From a virus: DNA of 43,356 nucleotides. The stretch spans positions 1 to 43,356 of IMG/VR virus record IMGVR_UViG_3300046007_007878; one strand, written 5' to 3'. The notes beneath the pieces are model-generated. The model was given only the letters and a program-made list of their open reading frames with translations, was not told the origin of the DNA and ran no database searches. The position numbers were made by a program, and so were the translations under genes. Positions 1,243-19,888 of the stretch are shown here, in pieces. Numbering within the stretch: position 1 is the stretch's first letter; each line of letters starts with the position of its first letter.

Positions 1243-3075
1243 ATGAACATTCTTCAGGGGATCGAGCACCTGCACACGCTCGACGGCGCCAGCTTTGTGG
1301 CGTTTGATGTGGAGACCACTGGACTCCAGCCGAAATTTGGTGGTCTGCGGCTGCTCCAGCTGGCCACCGTAGATCAAGCGCCCGTCGTATTGGATTGTTG
1401 GCAGTTCAGCGATGAGGACTGGATCACGCTGGAAAACTTTTTCACCGAGGAACGGACCTGGCTGGCGCACAATGCGGTATTCGATCTGGGCTGGCTCCAG
1501 GAGCATGAGATTTACCCGGAAGGCTTAGTATTTTGCTCTATGTTGGCTAGTCGTATTCTTACCAACGGTTTGCCTAACCAAAAACATGGACTTAAGCATG
1601 TAGTTAATGATTATTTAGGTTACGATATTTCTAAAGATGAGCAGAAAAGCGATTGGTCAGGAGATTTAACACTTAGTCAGTTAGAGTATGCTGCGACAGA
1701 TGTTGTTGTTTTGACTGAGCTATATGAGGTGCTAGAACAACATATGGCTCAGTATAAGCCCAGCTTACAGCCGGCATGGCGATTAGAATGTAAAGCGTTA
1801 CCTGCAATGGCACAGTTGTGGCGAACAGGTTTACCATTCAATAAAAGCGCATTAGTTAAACTGATTGAGGAGCTTGACATTGAAAACTTTGAAATAGGAG
1901 AACAGTTTATTGAAGATTTTGATGCGGCTCTTCCTCCTTTGGCTAAATTAGCCAGAAACGAACAGGGTAAAATTTTATATCAAGTAAAGCCTGGGGCAAA
2001 GGGCGCAAAACCTGACAAACGTGTATTTAACCTTAATAGTCCCATTCAACTGTTAAACAAATTTACTGCCTTACTAGGTGCTGAACCTTTAGACCCAAAG
2101 ACCGGTAAAGCTAGTGCTAGTAAAGCAGCACTTCAGGAGTACGTTGGAGAACACAAAATAATTGCGGATTATTTGCGGTGGAAACGTGTAGAGAAGCGGC
2201 GGCAAATGGCGGAGACTTTGTTAAAGAATTTGTCGGATGACGGGTTTATTCGTGCCAGCTATCTGCAGATGGGGGCTGACACCGGCAGGATGAGTTGCAT
2301 GAGTCCCAACCTGCAACAAGTGCCGCGGGACGTGCGTTTTCGGGCTTGCGTGCAAGCACCAGCTGGTTGGCGACTGGTTGTGGCGGACTATGGGCAGATG
2401 GAGTTGCGGCTGGCCGCGGCAGAAGCTCAAGATCCTCTTATGACTCAGGTGTTCCAGCAGGGGAAAGACCTGCATACGATTACAGCGACGCAGATTTACG
2501 GGGTCAAGGAAGAAGATGTTACAAAAGAGCAGCGGCAAGTCAGTAAATCAGCCAACTTCGGATTGTTATACGGAAGCGGTGCAAAAGGACTCAGAAACTA
2601 TGCCGCAACAATGGGAATCCAGATGGATCTTGATGAGGCTACGGCGGTGCGGGAAAAGTTCCATGCTGCATATACAGGCATCTCCAAATGGCAGCAGCGA
2701 AATGCTCTCGCTGCTCATGCGGATTCGTACAACGCATCTATCCGCATACGCGAATCGGGCTTGCGGCGGATTTTATCGGGCGAGAACAATAAACTTACGA
2801 CCCGTTGCAACACCCCAATCCAGGGAGCTGGTGCCGCCGTCCTCAAACTTACGCTCGGCAAACTGTGGCCGTTCCTTAAAGCAGACGGAGAAGAGCGGGT
2901 GCGCTTGGCCGGCGTGGTGCATGACGAGATCATCCTGCTCGTAAAAGAAGAACACGCCGATACTTGGGCCGCTCAGCTCCAGGCAATCATGGAAGAGGCT
3001 GAGGCTAAGTGGCTTGGCGAAATTCCCCCGCTTGCCGAAGCTAAGGTCGGATTGAGCTGGGACCAGGCAAAATGA
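1243..3075 (+). CDS. DNA polymerase I (family A) with 3'-5' exonuclease
   Basis: The replicative polymerase, 610 residues, with a proofreading exonuclease (about 1-175) and a family A polymerase domain (about 190-610), but no 5'-nuclease domain. Exo I is FDVETTG with D22 and E24, Exo II has N77 and D81, and Exo III is YAATD with Y149 and D153. Polymerase motif A is VVADYGQMELR with D382; the usual serine after DY is glycine. Motif B has R431, K435, F439 and Y443 with YG; the residue matching E. coli F762 is the common Phe (F439). Motif C is HDE at 560-562. Bases from about 1515 to 2170 are far more AT-rich than either flank, suggesting a recombinant segment. Its stop overlaps the next start (ATGA). 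Confidence 0.96.
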   Translation: MNILQGIEHLHTLDGASFVAFDVETTGLQPKFGGLRLLQLATVDQAPVVLDCWQFSDEDWITLENFFTEERTWLAHNAVFDLGWLQEHEIYPEGLVFCSMLASRILTNGLPNQKHGLKHVVNDYLGYDISKDEQKSDWSGDLTLSQLEYAATDVVVLTELYEVLEQHMAQYKPSLQPAWRLECKALPAMAQLWRTGLPFNKSALVKLIEELDIENFEIGEQFIEDFDAALPPLAKLARNEQGKILYQVKPGAKGAKPDKRVFNLNSPIQLLNKFTALLGAEPLDPKTGKASASKAALQEYVGEHKIIADYLRWKRVEKRRQMAETLLKNLSDDGFIRASYLQMGADTGRMSCMSPNLQQVPRDVRFRACVQAPAGWRLVVADYGQMELRLAAAEAQDPLMTQVFQQGKDLHTITATQIYGVKEEDVTKEQRQVSKSANFGLLYGSGAKGLRNYAATMGIQMDLDEATAVREKFHAAYTGISKWQQRNALAAHADSYNASIRIRESGLRRILSGENNKLTTRCNTPIQGAGAAVLKLTLGKLWPFLKADGEERVRLAGVVHDEIILLVKEEHADTWAAQLQAIMEEAEAKWLGEIPPLAEAKVGLSWDQAK

Positions 3076-3956
3076 CGTTACGTATACTTGACTTGTTTTC
3101 CGGCATTGGCGGATTTAGTTATGCGGCTGAAAACATTGTTGGAGGTTTTGAAACAAAACAATTTGTAGAGATAGACGGCTTTTGCCAGAAAGTTCTGCGT
3201 AAACACTGGCCCAATGTCCCAATCCATTCCGATGTCTGCACCTTTACAGCTCCAGTTGGATCTTTCGACGTTATATGCGGAGGATTTCCCTGCCAAGACC
3301 TCAGTACAGCTGGAAAACAAGCCGGTCTTCAAGGCCATAGAAGTGGGCTGTTCTTTGAGATCATGCGTTTGGCTAGGGAAATTCAACCTAGATTTATCGT
3401 CATTGAAAACGTGGCAAACTTACGGTCTCACTCCGACGGGGAAACTTTCCAAGAAGTGCTCTGGGAAATTGCCTCGGCAGGGTTTAATGCTGAGTGGGCA
3501 TGTATACCAGCTGCAGATGTGGGAGCCTGCCACAAACGAGATCGCATATGGATTGTTGCCTACTCCGACAGCGTGTATAGCAAACGATGGGGAAACTCCC
3601 CGAACGTGGCTGGAACGCAGGGAGCGTGTGAAGACAACAACAAAAAATGGGAACGGAATGGGAATGCCTCTAACTATTGCGGCTCAGTTACTGCCGACAC
3701 CAACAACGCGGGATTGGAAAGATGGCAGTCAATACAGTGCCAGCAAAGCTCCAGCAAATGGCCTACTTGGCAGGGAGATTCACGTTTTATGCTCTTCAAT
3801 GACTGGCGATCCTTTATATCTAAACCCGTCATTCGTCGAGGAGATGATGGGTTTTCCGGTCGGGTGGACCGCTTAAAGGCTCTTGGTAACGCTGTCGTTC
3901 CTCATGTAGCCGCAGTAGCTTTGAACCGGGTCAAGCATTTAGCGCAAGATGTTTGA
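3072..3956 (+). CDS. DNA (cytosine-5) methyltransferase
   Basis: A 294-residue C5-methyltransferase that transfers a methyl group from S-adenosylmethionine to cytosine, probably protecting phage DNA from host restriction or altering late expression. Motif I is DLFSGIGG (7-14), motif IV is GGFPCQDLS with catalytic C74, motif VI is ENV with E112, motif VIII includes KRDRIWIV (155-162), and motif X is ALGNAVVP near the C-terminus. The target-recognition region (about 168-250) is short and unusually rich in Asn, Ser and Trp. The same DNA encodes a second long reading frame (3214-3876), which may explain that composition. No cognate endonuclease lies nearby, so it looks like an orphan enzyme. Target sequence unknown. 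Confidence 0.95.
   Translation: MTLRILDLFSGIGGFSYAAENIVGGFETKQFVEIDGFCQKVLRKHWPNVPIHSDVCTFTAPVGSFDVICGGFPCQDLSTAGKQAGLQGHRSGLFFEIMRLAREIQPRFIVIENVANLRSHSDGETFQEVLWEIASAGFNAEWACIPAADVGACHKRDRIWIVAYSDSVYSKRWGNSPNVAGTQGACEDNNKKWERNGNASNYCGSVTADTNNAGLERWQSIQCQQSSSKWPTWQGDSRFMLFNDWRSFISKPVIRRGDDGFSGRVDRLKALGNAVVPHVAAVALNRVKHLAQDV
3214..3876 (+). CDS. Overprinted protein nested in the +1 frame of the methyltransferase gene
   Basis: A 220-codon frame with no stop lies wholly inside the methyltransferase gene, one base out of phase. Its product looks like a real family I recall from genes next to phage and bacterial dcm: DFPAKTS (24-30), LPRQGLMLSGHVYQL (86-100), two copies of LLPTPT (114-119 and 159-164), TRDWKDG, and LNPSFVEEMMGFPVGWT (203-219) at the end. 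The motifs coincide with methyltransferase motifs in the other frame: GFPCQDLS, RIWIVAYSDS and DDGFSGRVD. Between those anchors the nested frame stays protein-like while the methyltransferase frame is low in complexity. The ATG at 3214 has no clear ribosome site, so the start is uncertain. Function unknown; an over-annotated shadow frame is the main alternative. Confidence 0.6.
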   Translation: MSQSIPMSAPLQLQLDLSTLYAEDFPAKTSVQLENKPVFKAIEVGCSLRSCVWLGKFNLDLSSLKTWQTYGLTPTGKLSKKCSGKLPRQGLMLSGHVYQLQMWEPATNEIAYGLLPTPTACIANDGETPRTWLERRERVKTTTKNGNGMGMPLTIAAQLLPTPTTRDWKDGSQYSASKAPANGLLGREIHVLCSSMTGDPLYLNPSFVEEMMGFPVGWTA

Positions 3957-15206: not shown

Positions 15207-15572
15207 CAGAACTGCGATGAGTTTTATTTGGACGGTGCTGTAACCGTTTTTAACGCTGGTGATGGATGGTGCTTCGGCATATCGCCATGCGTTGCCAGTT
15301 CCAATGTTTAACGTTCCAGGAGACCAGCCAGCAACAGCTTCGGTTGGGAGATTGAAGGTCAGGTAGGTGCCTTTTGTTTCGTCAAAGTGTGTAACAAAAC
15401 TGTTGGCGTTGGTGTCGGTGATGTTTTCGTAGGTCAGTGAGGCTGTTGCGCCAGTGCGGCGGTTGCCGTAAAGGATGCGAGTCTCGGCGCCGGATTGGGA
15501 GCGAAACGATTTGATCGGGTAATCGCCCGCGTCGAAGTTGCGGCTAGACGGTTTGAGGGTGGGGTAAGGCAT
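15204..15572 (-). CDS. Minor tail protein (122 aa)
   Basis: A 122-residue beta-rich protein beginning MPYPTLKPSSRNFDAGDYP. The segments FRSQSGAETRILYGNRRTGA, SLTYENITDTNA and THFDETKGTYLTFNLP match a family of small tail proteins that I recall downstream of the J-like gene in cyanobacterial phages and prophages. The ATG abuts the stop of the J-like gene (15572 shared). Probably a tail tip part; biochemical role unknown. Confidence 0.65.
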   Translation of the reverse strand: MPYPTLKPSSRNFDAGDYPIKSFRSQSGAETRILYGNRRTGATASLTYENITDTNANSFVTHFDETKGTYLTFNLPTEAVAGWSPGTLNIGTGNAWRYAEAPSITSVKNGYSTVQIKLIAVL

Positions 15573-18500
15573 CAGAGGTCAACGAGGAAATTGCCGCTGT
15601 TTGTCACGTCAAGCGCAATGGTGCTCACCAAGCTGCTGTTGCACGGGAAGTGCGAAGCGTTGATCTGGACGGCGCCATCTGCATCCAGCGTAATCTGTTC
15701 CACCTGATAAACATTTGCCGAGACGGTTGAGTTGACCACGGTGAAAACAGAGTTGTACAAGGCCGTCTGTTGCACCACGCCGCCGCTGACTGTCATGGTT
15801 GCTTGCACGACGGTTTCAGAGCCTGAGGTGTAATACAAGATTGTGTATTGGCCGTCGTTGAAAGTTGTGGCGCTGGTGATGATGCCGGTGGCGCCGATGC
15901 TGCCGTTTTGGGCTGAGCTGTACGGGTTGGCCTCGGTAACCACACGGATGTAATCGCCGGGTGCCAGATCAATACCGTAAGGCGAAGTTTTGAATTGGAT
16001 TGAGTGGGTGATACGGCGGCGGATTGACAGGAAGAAACGCGCCACGAGTTCGGCATGGGCGCGGCTGGTGCAGTATTGCGTCATGTCGAATGACTCCAGC
16101 GGATGCCCAGTGCTGGCGGTTTCGTTCCAGCGGACGACGATGTTGCGCTCTTGCGGCAGTTGGTTTTCACGTTCTTCACGGAAACGCATCATTGCTTGGA
16201 AGTCTTTGCGCTCCTCGGCAGAGATGTAGTTGAGTTCAAAGGAGTCTTCAAAAATATTGCCGGCGGTGAACAGTTGTTTGATCGTTACGGGGGTGGTTTG
16301 GATGTTGCCGCCGATGTCTGTGGGCAGTGCGGGCAGCAAACTAAATTTGCCGTCGGAAATGACGAAGTTGCACAGCATGAACGGTGCTGTGTCGGCAATG
16401 AACTGACGGATGTTGACCGTACTGGCAACCGCTCCATCAAAAAACAGACTGTTGGTTTTAAGGAATTTGGCGGTGGTGATGAAGTCAGTGGTATTGATTA
16501 ACGGGGCGCTGTTGACGCTCATGTTGAGGAGATCGCCCACACCGGCAACACGGTCGGTGAGCATGTAGTACACAAGGTCGCAGAACAGGTTGCTGGGTTT
16601 AATTTCGGAGGATTCGCTGGGGTGGAATCGCTTTACGGGAATGCCGTTTTTGATCCAAAAGCGAATCTGATCCAGTGATGTAAAGTTGCGGGACGCTTTG
16701 AGCGCCAAGCCCGCTGTTGTCATGTAGCTGTACTGGGGGTCTTGGTCGTTGGCGACTATTTCGTTGACGTAGGTAATGACGTGCTCGGGTCCGTTGGCGT
16801 TGGACTTTTCGACAAGGTTGCCGTAAAAACTGACATCCGCGTACTGACTCTGGCTTTCAAATGATCTGCCGGCATATGTGTACTGCTGCGTGTATGTTTG
16901 GCCGCGTGATTCAATAACGAACTCTGCGCCAACCTGTGATCCGGGCTGACGGAAGGGGTTAGACGTGCCAACAAAATACGTTTGTGTGAATAGATCACCA
17001 ACGGACCAGTTATCGGAAACCTTACTAGTGTCGCTGCTGATTGTGATGATGGGTGCTGTCCAGAGCTTGGTAACGCCGCTCCAGTGGGCGGGATCTTCGT
17101 AAACAGTGCTGCTGAAATTCAGGCGGATGTATTTGCTGCCGACAGTGAAGTCGATAAAAGCGGAGCGTTGCGTGCTGGTGGCGTAGTTGCGGGCTGGTCC
17201 CAGCAGTTCTTCGTAAAAGGCTTGGCTACGGCCTTGGGTTGCCGTGGAGTTGATGACGCTGGTGACGCGGCGGCGTTGACCGATGGTGATAAAAGCCGGC
17301 GATTGATCAGGCTGGCGGTATGGGTTGCTGGCGCTGACAGGAAAGGAGATCGTAAATTCGCTAAGTTGCGTCCAGTTTTTGGAGCTTTCAATAATGGTTT
17401 CGTTTTCAACGACCCAAGTAAATTGCTGGCCGTAACCGATGCTTGCGGTTTTACGGAGGGTGTAGCGCACCTTGTATGAACGGTTGCCGCTGATGTTCCA
17501 GGTGTAGTCGCGGACAACTGTGGTGCCGTCGTTTCCGGGATAGTTATCAGCCGAGCCGACGCCCATGGCTGTGGCCAGTTCCCATGTAAATGCGCCGTTG
17601 CGGCCTGAGGTGTATTCAAAAACTGGGTCGGTGTACCAGCTCGCAAATTCTGTGGCGCCAAGGCTGACGAGGCTGTCGTCAAATTCCGGCAGGAACGTAA
17701 GCAGGCCGACACTGGTGGGGCGGTCGTTGACGACGGTACGATCCAAGAACGTGGGTTCGTTGCGGAACTCGTCGTTGTGCTGAATATCGAGCTTGGTGAC
17801 TTTGCTGCCGACTGCCTGCAACTTGAAAACACCGTATGCCGTGGTGTAGTTGGCGGACAGAATTTGGCGTTGGGAAGTGCTGTCGAGTGAACCGCCGTTG
17901 TACAAGTACCAGAACTCGGCAGTATCGGGAGAGTTGTAGCCGATGTCTGCGCCGTTTTTAGGGATAAATTTGTACTCGTACTGGCGCTTGTCTGGGTGGG
18001 TTACGCGAATGAAGTTGTACTGTTCGATGGGTTGGTTGCCGATGACGCAGAACTGCTCACCAATCGGTTCCCATGTGTAGGCAGCACCAGCAGGATTGAG
18101 GCCGGCGGGGCGGATAAAGATGGTGAAAAGTGATGCGCGTTTGATGTAAGCGTTGATCGTGCCAGTTGATACTTGGACGCGCTTTTCGTCGAGGTTGCGG
18201 AGTTGCTGCGGGCTGGGTACGTTCTTGAAGTTGCAGATGTTGTTGAGACGCTGGTACACATTGCTGCGGATGCCGAACTCGGTTACATCACACGGGCGGG
18301 TGTTGCGAATCTTGGCCTCAGACACACGCATCAGCGGGAAAAATGCTGAACCGGCGTTGTACTGGATAGGGGTGTTGTTGTCGTTGATATAGTCTGAGCG
18401 CAGCATGTAGTCGGACACCATGCCAATGATGTTGTTGGCGGTTGTACCAGAGTCGATGCACTTAAGCGTGATCAACTGATCTTGTGCGATGTCGCGGTCC

Positions 18501-19888
18501 CAGAGTGCAAGGCTTCTGGCGGTTACTTGCCATGTGGTACGACCGATCATGAACATTTCGCCGATCTGCAGTTCGTCGTCTGCAGCAATACGCATTTCGG
18601 CTGTTGCGTCGTTGATGTCGTCTACGCTGACTTCACGGTCTGTGCCCTTGTAATAATCACTGCGGATCATGTTATGGGCAATCGTAAAAGTAATTTCGTC
18701 GCCAACACCAACACTTTGAGTTGATACGCCAGTGGCGTTTGAGATGGTGATCGGGGTGGCTACACCTACTTTTTTCAGGCTTGTGATGCCCATGCGGCGG
18801 CTGTAGTTGCGGCCAGTGCCCTCCATGCCAAGGCCGCGTAGATCGCGGAATGTTCCACCGTCATCAACGCCGTTTACATAACCTGTGCCGTTGGCGTCGC
18901 CGGCAATCTTGACGCGCTCGTAGGTCAGGTTGTCGCCTGGATCGTCGCGCTGATTGAGTAGGTGCGGGATGCTAACAACGCGCCAGTTGACGCGGTAGTG
19001 GCTGCCGTTGGGGATTGGGGAGTAGCAGCCAAAGTCGGCGTTGTTGCTTAAGCCGTGGGCGGCAGAAAATGCGTCGTCGTTTGCCTGTGCGCGGGTCGGG
19101 CAGCTAAATACGTCGCCGTGGTTTTCGGGATCGCCAGATGCAAGGGTTCCACGGGTGCCATACAGCAGATCCGATGCTTGGATGCGGCGGTTGATCAGAT
19201 TATTGAGATCGCGCTTCCAGTAGAAGGCGAAGGTCTCGTTGTAGATGGTGTCGAGGGCGCCGTTGCCGATGAAAATGCCCTGCAATGCTGGGGGTTCGAT
19301 GCCGTCGGGGCGGACGCCTTCAGTTACGCCTTGCTCGCCTACAACAAACAACAATTTGACGCCTTGCTGGCGCCCGTAGCTGAACATGCGCGACCACACC
19401 AGCTTGGGTGTAATCAAAATTCCGCCGGTTGTTCCAGTCCAACGGCCAAAGACGATGGGGATTGGGTCGCCGTAGCTGGCTAATTCGGCCTGACTATCAA
19501 AGCCGAAAGTAGGCGTAAAACGCTGGCCGCCGATAAGGCTGGCGAGACTTAACTGTGTTGTACCTTGTTGTTGATCTTGGGGCGCCCGAGGTTTAGGTGT
19601 TAAAAAATAAGAGACAGCCGTTGTAACTGCCCCAAGGGCAAGACTGATTAGGGCTGATACGAGGACTGGGCCGTTTTGTACGTCTGGAACGAGGTCGTAT
19701 TCGGCGGGGCGTATTTTTGAACGCTTGTAGGCTTCAGCTACAAAAAATCTGTACTCGTCTTCGGTGAGGCCGGTTAATTCCAGGAGCTGCTTTTCATACG
19801 GAAGCAGATTGGGCTGATAAAGACGTGCGGCGGTGCCCAAGCGACTTTTCCCAGGTAGCTGTTGATGTACAGGATCCCGGTCTGCCAT
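15572..19888 (-). CDS. Large tail tip protein (J-like, central tail/host specificity)
   Basis: The second-longest stretch of the tail module, 1438 residues. The N-terminal 80 residues include NLLPYEKQLLELTGLTEDEY and KRSKIRPAEYDLVPDV, an opening I recall from cyanophage tip proteins, followed by a hydrophobic helix (LVSALISLALGAVTTAVSYFL, about 95-115). Then ELASYGDPIPIVFG marks the start of the hub region shared with lambda J-type proteins. The C-terminal third (LPQERNIVVRWNETASTGHP, then an LAPGDYIRV strand) is typical of tail hub proteins. It would form the tail tip that connects the tube to fibres and opens at infection. Its first 115 bases overlap the NlpC-like gene in another frame. Confidence 0.85.
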   Translation of the reverse strand: MADRDPVHQQLPGKSRLGTAARLYQPNLLPYEKQLLELTGLTEDEYRFFVAEAYKRSKIRPAEYDLVPDVQNGPVLVSALISLALGAVTTAVSYFLTPKPRAPQDQQQGTTQLSLASLIGGQRFTPTFGFDSQAELASYGDPIPIVFGRWTGTTGGILITPKLVWSRMFSYGRQQGVKLLFVVGEQGVTEGVRPDGIEPPALQGIFIGNGALDTIYNETFAFYWKRDLNNLINRRIQASDLLYGTRGTLASGDPENHGDVFSCPTRAQANDDAFSAAHGLSNNADFGCYSPIPNGSHYRVNWRVVSIPHLLNQRDDPGDNLTYERVKIAGDANGTGYVNGVDDGGTFRDLRGLGMEGTGRNYSRRMGITSLKKVGVATPITISNATGVSTQSVGVGDEITFTIAHNMIRSDYYKGTDREVSVDDINDATAEMRIAADDELQIGEMFMIGRTTWQVTARSLALWDRDIAQDQLITLKCIDSGTTANNIIGMVSDYMLRSDYINDNNTPIQYNAGSAFFPLMRVSEAKIRNTRPCDVTEFGIRSNVYQRLNNICNFKNVPSPQQLRNLDEKRVQVSTGTINAYIKRASLFTIFIRPAGLNPAGAAYTWEPIGEQFCVIGNQPIEQYNFIRVTHPDKRQYEYKFIPKNGADIGYNSPDTAEFWYLYNGGSLDSTSQRQILSANYTTAYGVFKLQAVGSKVTKLDIQHNDEFRNEPTFLDRTVVNDRPTSVGLLTFLPEFDDSLVSLGATEFASWYTDPVFEYTSGRNGAFTWELATAMGVGSADNYPGNDGTTVVRDYTWNISGNRSYKVRYTLRKTASIGYGQQFTWVVENETIIESSKNWTQLSEFTISFPVSASNPYRQPDQSPAFITIGQRRRVTSVINSTATQGRSQAFYEELLGPARNYATSTQRSAFIDFTVGSKYIRLNFSSTVYEDPAHWSGVTKLWTAPIITISSDTSKVSDNWSVGDLFTQTYFVGTSNPFRQPGSQVGAEFVIESRGQTYTQQYTYAGRSFESQSQYADVSFYGNLVEKSNANGPEHVITYVNEIVANDQDPQYSYMTTAGLALKASRNFTSLDQIRFWIKNGIPVKRFHPSESSEIKPSNLFCDLVYYMLTDRVAGVGDLLNMSVNSAPLINTTDFITTAKFLKTNSLFFDGAVASTVNIRQFIADTAPFMLCNFVISDGKFSLLPALPTDIGGNIQTTPVTIKQLFTAGNIFEDSFELNYISAEERKDFQAMMRFREERENQLPQERNIVVRWNETASTGHPLESFDMTQYCTSRAHAELVARFFLSIRRRITHSIQFKTSPYGIDLAPGDYIRVVTEANPYSSAQNGSIGATGIITSATTFNDGQYTILYYTSGSETVVQATMTVSGGVVQQTALYNSVFTVVNSTVSANVYQVEQITLDADGAVQINASHFPCNSSLVSTIALDVTNSGNFLVDL

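Follow-up and report, generated by a model that had tools for sequence, protein, structure and literature searches.

A phage C5-cytosine methyltransferase gene enclosing a selected +1-frame gene that probably supplies its recognition modules and motif IX

Introduction

M.SPR and M.phi3T are multispecific phage C5-cytosine DNA methyltransferases (C5-MTases), each of which combines several exchangeable recognition modules, while M.EcoHK31I and M.AquI are YGGCCR and CYCGRG methyltransferases, respectively. In 1995, Lee et al. reportedly described the small gene of M.EcoHK31I as lying inside the large one in another reading frame. Both M.EcoHK31I and M.AquI are two-chain enzymes in which the small polypeptide carries motif IX (PMC3404938). 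The large polypeptide of M.EcoHK31I carries motifs I-VIII, motif X and a predicted recognition domain, and the large subunit of M.AquI ends in a variable region (PMC3404938).

Here we analyze a comparable locus in the tailed-phage record IMGVR_UViG_3300046007_007878 (a virus; 43,356 bases, hereafter the window), where the gene for a large C5-MTase polypeptide (alpha) encloses a second gene (beta) in its +1 frame.

Results

The flanking open reading frames searched gave matches that include terminase, portal, major head, tail, endolysin, DNA polymerase and primase, and no restriction enzyme was identified among them beside alpha and beta. Alpha (3072..3956, plus strand, as are all features of the locus given below) encodes 294 amino acids with motifs I-VIII and X, and its ATG shares bases with the stop codon that ends the DNA polymerase gene upstream (1243-3075). 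Its assignment comes from matches to PF00145 (1.6e-45, over residues 4-171 only, the match ending at motif VIII), TIGR00675 (2.3e-41) and phrog_363 (3e-76). Alignment to M.HhaI places motif I (DLFSGIGGF) at 3090..3116, motif IV (GGFPCQDLS, with the catalytic Cys) at 3279..3305, motif VI (ENV) at 3405..3413, motif VIII (CHKRDRIWIVA) at 3528..3560 and motif X (RVDRLKALGNAVVPHVA) at 3861..3911, so that motifs I, IV (PCQ), VI (ENV) and VIII of the PF00145 class are all present in alpha. A single polypeptide carrying a recognition domain together with motifs IX and X was not found here, the IX-like sequence lying solely in the +1 frame. What alpha has between motifs VIII and X (3561..3860) is an Asn/Ser-rich passenger segment that contains neither a target-recognition domain nor motif IX.

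The original prediction of a 220-codon open reading frame with an ATG start at 3214-3876, in the +1 frame inside the methyltransferase gene at 3072-3956, agrees with the open reading frame coordinates, and the nested-frame motifs it quoted all occur in beta. The beta product (3214..3876; up to 220 amino acids) is encoded entirely within alpha and matches phrog_1008 (3.7e-21 over beta 19-219). Its 'DFPAKTS' is read in the +1 frame at alpha motif IV, and its first 'LLPTPT' starts, again in +1, at alpha motif VIII. Two predicted target-recognition modules follow, module 1 (LPTPTACIANDGETPRTWLERRERV...) at 3556..3690 and module 2 (LPTPTTRDWKDGSQ...) at 3691..3816, both with identity to modules of relatives, and then a candidate motif IX (LNPSFVEEMMGFPVGWT) at 3820..3870, which partially overlaps alpha motif X in the other frame. 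The families phrog_363 (alpha) and phrog_1008 (beta) are both labelled 'DNA methyltransferase', with no nesting or role recorded. Since phrog_1008 also matches the alpha motif X region, it includes split-type members with motif X in the beta frame.

We evaluated the nested frame by its lack of stops. The +1 run of 233 codons (stop to stop) in the window alpha was matched in 0.03% of 20,000 synonymous-codon permutations (P = 0.0003), with the +2 frame being ordinary in the same test (P = 0.39). Homologues were gathered twice, by beta (80 viral loci) and by the first 162 alpha residues only (80 viral loci), the second set in order to avoid circularity. A beta-profile match was present in the +1 frame at 80/80 of the alpha-selected loci, 68 of which reach motif IX (counted from the table); the remaining 12 comprise 3 cut by contig ends, 2 with motif IX in the alpha frame and 7 that stop short of motif IX. 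Across 51 alpha-selected, beta-blind genes of <90% identity, alpha columns 61-255 contain 17 +1 stops vs. 263 expected, a 15-fold depletion, while the +1 frame outside these columns contains 228 vs. 190 expected and the +2 frame 583 vs. 591 expected. Close relatives have no +1 stops within the nested frame in either the beta-found or the alpha-only-found set. As a control we used 18 PF00145 genes without a beta match, found by Pfam alone in gammaproteobacterial-class genomes; these have 84 +1 stops vs. 94 expected, so the signal is not common to all C5 genes.

At a finer scale, the depletion sets in at columns 64-66, which means that beta begins upstream of motif IV. A +1 ATG is found at columns 51-54 in 96/113 relatives, and an alternative start of this kind in the window is the ATG at 3232..3234 (alpha column 53). 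As no clear conserved Shine-Dalgarno or start-codon signal is visible at the beta start of the relatives (any signal being weak), the ATGs at 3214 and 3232 both stand as candidate starts of beta.

Selection was then described by scoring the differences between disjoint pairs as synonymous or not in each frame. For the alpha-based alignment (65 pairs), omega_beta (dNN/dNS) is 0.89 in columns 1-60 (control), 0.58 at 61-165, 0.64 at 166-240, 0.22 at 241-252 and 0.73 at 256-285 (control), and omega_alpha (dNN/dSN) over the same five segments is 0.22, 0.27, 0.78, 0.77 and 0.21. With the beta-based alignment (45 pairs), omega_beta for the recognition modules is 0.37 (0.33-0.42) and omega_alpha is 1.15 (dNN/dSN) or 0.78 (dNS/dSS), values that favor beta since these pairs were chosen and aligned on beta identity, and the contrast in the modules is weaker in the alpha-based treatment (0.64 vs. 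0.78). At motif IX the beta-based values are 0.09 for omega_beta vs. 0.66 or 0.46 for omega_alpha. Taken over both treatments, omega_alpha lies between 0.21 and 0.27 for motifs I-VIII and X, reaches roughly 0.7-1.2 across the recognition stretch and is 0.5-0.8 at motif IX.

The DNA is thus divided between the frames, with alpha dominant over motifs I-VIII and X and beta dominant over the recognition modules and motif IX. This division accounts for the Asn/Ser-rich stretch of the methyltransferase, which is real (alpha residues 164-262) and which had been ascribed to the other frame dictating the codons: beta is constrained over the target-recognition and motif IX stretch, alpha is a passenger there, and its linker is rich in Asn and Ser because the linker codons are set by the beta frame. 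The anchors said to coincide with methyltransferase motifs are likewise present, but they are not all alike. Two of them, 'DFPAKTS' and PRQGLMLSGHVYQL, are read across from alpha motif IV and the AGFNAEW segment, and alpha therefore imposes part of the likeness that they show among relatives, whereas LNPSFVEEMMGFPVGWT lies opposite nearly unconstrained alpha sequence and its conservation belongs to the nested frame.

These data bear directly on the possibility of a shadow frame, in which the +1 frame would be open and similar among relatives only through the conservation of alpha and would yield no product. The strong conservation of alpha at columns 61-165 (omega_alpha 0.27) does impose part of the +1 sequence, and a single gene can reach a +1 run of this length by rare chance (P = 0.0003). 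Neither effect explains a stop depletion found in >100 genes, in one frame and one segment, and absent from ordinary C5-MTases, nor a conservation that peaks where alpha is unconstrained, and in mycobacteriophage Roosevelt the module region keeps the beta frame alone. We consider this explanation extremely improbable, rejected as it is by the stop-depletion and selection tests, and the lack of a nested-frame signal in ordinary C5-MTases rules out that beta and its matches are merely shadow frames of dcm genes. Beta is a real, selected, dual-coded gene, as the stop and selection tests together confirm for the coding of both frames, and the nested frame is under purifying selection.

Nesting of this kind was expected to be rare, which is not the case, as the arrangement is family-wide in phages, bacteria and archaea. 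When 84,980 species genomes were scanned with the beta profile, 80 cellular loci were returned, all of them bacterial except two from a Euryarchaeota bin, and beta is in the +1 frame of an alpha in these loci, with frame disruptions at two of them (L180 and L230). In class samples that each contain their own centre genome, beta was found in 9/289 alphaproteobacterial and 8/274 gammaproteobacterial genomes, nested in every case (E <= 1e-10), or in ~3% of the species sampled in these classes. The nested arrangement is widespread, occurring in hundreds of related viruses and microbes. A contig of an Actinomycetota bin (L215:2907-4971) has two alpha/beta-type matches in tandem.

This breadth also weighs on whether the locus could be a decayed or mis-sequenced monomeric methyltransferase with two compensating indels. 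The partition does resemble two frameshifts in a monomer, which is perhaps how it originated; as an account of the present gene the chance of this is negligible, excluded by an arrangement that recurs, under purifying selection, in well over 100 genes of phages, bacteria and archaea.

In the records inspected, beta is mostly unannotated and usually alpha alone is listed. An exception is Paenibacillus phage Shelly gp56 (L248; NC_041909.1 33550-34254), a nested beta deposited as 'g55 internal gene' that matches phrog_1008 at 8e-74. Synechococcus phage S-H1 is another cultured phage with the alpha and beta pair. Our literature search found no paper describing the nested phage genes; within the material searched the arrangement is new as a documented family-wide one, and its precedent is clear.

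The middle of beta is built from 1-5 units that each start with LPTP, two of which are present in the window, and across 179 distinct betas the units recur in different orders and numbers. Module 1 of the window is 80% identical to module 1 of a Planctomycetota-bin contig (L167), 75% identical to module 3 of L123 and unrelated to module 1 of L007, and module 2 of the window is 88% identical to module 2 of that same L007. Such shuffling is the behavior expected of exchangeable target-recognition modules, which would make the units putative specificity determinants.

When M.HhaI is aligned to a profile made of alpha I-VIII, the beta modules and motif IX, and alpha X, its residues 266-318 (motifs IX and X) align in order and in exact register, LnPsfveelmGfPvGW in beta being followed by lGnavvPqv in alpha. 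The match of the beta motif IX to that of M.HhaI (KLHPRECARVMGYPDSY) is weak, at 2.7 bits. Since the parts follow one another in the DNA as they do in a normal methyltransferase, programmed frameshifting could be imagined to join alpha I-VIII, the beta modules and motif IX, and alpha X into a single chain. This would take two shifts in opposite directions, and the +1 frame is stop-free for ~100 codons upstream of motif VIII, which a shift after motif VIII would not require, so that we regard frameshifting as very unlikely.

The same parts are divided differently in other lineages. In mycobacteriophages Roosevelt (L005) and Bora (L253), alpha stops after motif VIII, and everything beyond it is encoded in the beta frame, which overlaps alpha over a short distance; the Roosevelt beta frame contains the modules, motif IX and motif X together, and in both phages the pair is annotated as two 'DNA methylase' genes. 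At five further loci (L146, L192, L205, L231 and L243) motif IX (and X) is in the alpha frame and the modules are still in +1. In two phage contigs (L107 and L109), alpha does not extend past motif VIII and the +1 frame is interrupted within the module region; these may be decaying or re-partitioned copies.

Open +1 frames were also observed in other methyltransferase types. Streptococcus-type and phiCD27-type phage MTases are mostly complete in one frame, and in columns 46-150 they have 24 +1 stops vs. 309 expected (54 genes) and 0 vs. about 111 expected (18 genes), respectively. Their nested +1 product matches PHROG 16143 (L279-L357 and L358-L437; examples are L280:1652-2083 and L282:1592-2074). 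This phrog_16143 product is under purifying selection, with omega_beta 0.44 in columns 106-150 and 0.22 at 151-165 (combined set) against 0.70-0.74 in control segments, and 112 loci keep its C-terminal LSDILEEEVDEKYFL opposite alpha GHLRGGSGRKVFP at the same offset. It resembles beta in being a +1, stop-depleted and selected frame over alpha motifs IV-VIII, and differs in that it ends shortly after motif VIII, without LPTPT modules or motif IX, and in that its MTase is monomeric. The presence of phrog_16143 in monomeric MTases means that +1 genes nested over motifs IV-VIII occur beyond the split enzyme. Whether nested +1 genes form a general, mostly unannotated layer of phage-type C5-MTase genes, in one clade as a modular specificity subunit whose shuffled units retarget the enzyme, with the in-frame chain serving just as a linker opposite them, and in monomeric types as a phrog_16143 gene kept under selection, is a question to which we give slightly less than an even chance of a positive answer.

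Elsewhere in the window, the DNA polymerase gene contains a +1 run that stays open for 166 codons (2444-2941, plus strand), longer than in any of 300 synonymous shuffles; the resemblance to relatives over this run is 41% vs. 75% for the polymerase, a low likeness that fits a shadow frame. In the tail protein gene (15572-19888, minus strand), the +1 frame is open for 293 codons in a row (shuffle P = 0.007).

Structure prediction with AlphaFold was poor for beta alone (pLDDT 60). For a relative (L102) whose chains were joined in silico by a four-letter step, the joined alpha-beta model was confident in an M.HhaI-like catalytic domain only, with no confident recognition lobe, and its Foldseek matches cover essentially the catalytic domain. 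A Pfam search with alpha and beta joined in silico gave no extension over the modules or motif IX (with one control using shuffled beta), and a PDB sequence search with beta returned no meaningful match.

It could thus be asked if beta is translated and selected for some other role, for example as a regulator, an anti-restriction factor or a nuclease partner. Beta lacks a recognisable fold, its motif IX score is weak, and phrog_16143 is nested in complete monomeric MTases that have no missing part to be supplied, all of which would be compatible with another function. Such a role leaves aside that alpha has neither motif IX nor a recognition domain and is unconstrained where they would be, that several lineages redistribute the same parts between frames (including modules, IX and X contiguously), and that M.EcoHK31I offers a precedent; we consider it unlikely, with more to be said for it than for frameshifting. 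Beta had been predicted to be a separate, dcm-associated protein, and most likely it is instead the missing specificity and motif IX part of the same methyltransferase.

Discussion

Dual coding, the motif split, the constraint pattern, module mosaicism and the breadth of distribution are direct observations, and with them in hand we think it highly probable, judging from sequence, that the locus encodes one C5-cytosine DNA methyltransferase made as two polypeptides from two frames, with beta contributing the recognition modules and motif IX. For such an enzyme, alpha would contribute motif X as well as the catalytic domain (motifs I-VIII), the two being linked by a passenger segment in which the residues hardly matter. 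Translation of beta would start internally, close to alpha codons 47-62, and proceed in +1 through an N-terminal part that overprints alpha motifs IV-VIII, then the exchangeable module or modules, then motif IX, with the predicted chain ending just before motif X. Target recognition would fall to the LPTPT modules of beta, the two chains would assemble into the active enzyme, and an exchange of beta modules would be expected to change the methylated sequence. Since no restriction enzyme was identified adjacent to the locus, the methyltransferase probably serves a protective role, shielding the phage DNA from host restriction.

Because alpha is usually the only annotated chain, genes of this kind that are cloned alone are probably inactive, and their predicted specificities would be read from the wrong frame. 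The phage, bacterial and archaeal loci also provide a large natural data set of two proteins evolving in one DNA with one frame drifting, and the retargeting of DNA methylation by shuffled nested modules becomes testable.

Relative to the systems already described, the multispecific enzymes M.SPR and M.phi3T are set apart by description, in that their modules are in the MTase frame and those described here are in the nested frame. M.AquI is resembled by the Roosevelt and Bora genes; it differs from the window locus in that its small subunit has motifs IX and X, whereas here motif X is in alpha and the nesting is complete. The likeness is greatest to M.EcoHK31I, where the large chain carries motifs I-VIII and X and the small chain motif IX, as in alpha and beta, and where the small gene is said to lie in the other frame, as is seen in the window and in the alpha-selected loci. 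The differences from M.EcoHK31I are that no cognate restriction enzyme was identified near the phage gene, and that the recognition domain of M.EcoHK31I is in the large subunit, whereas here omega_alpha is about 0.8-1.15 over this stretch and beta is constrained instead. With the modules in the nested chain and alpha nearly unconstrained opposite them, we place this set, compared by description, as a variant of M.EcoHK31I.
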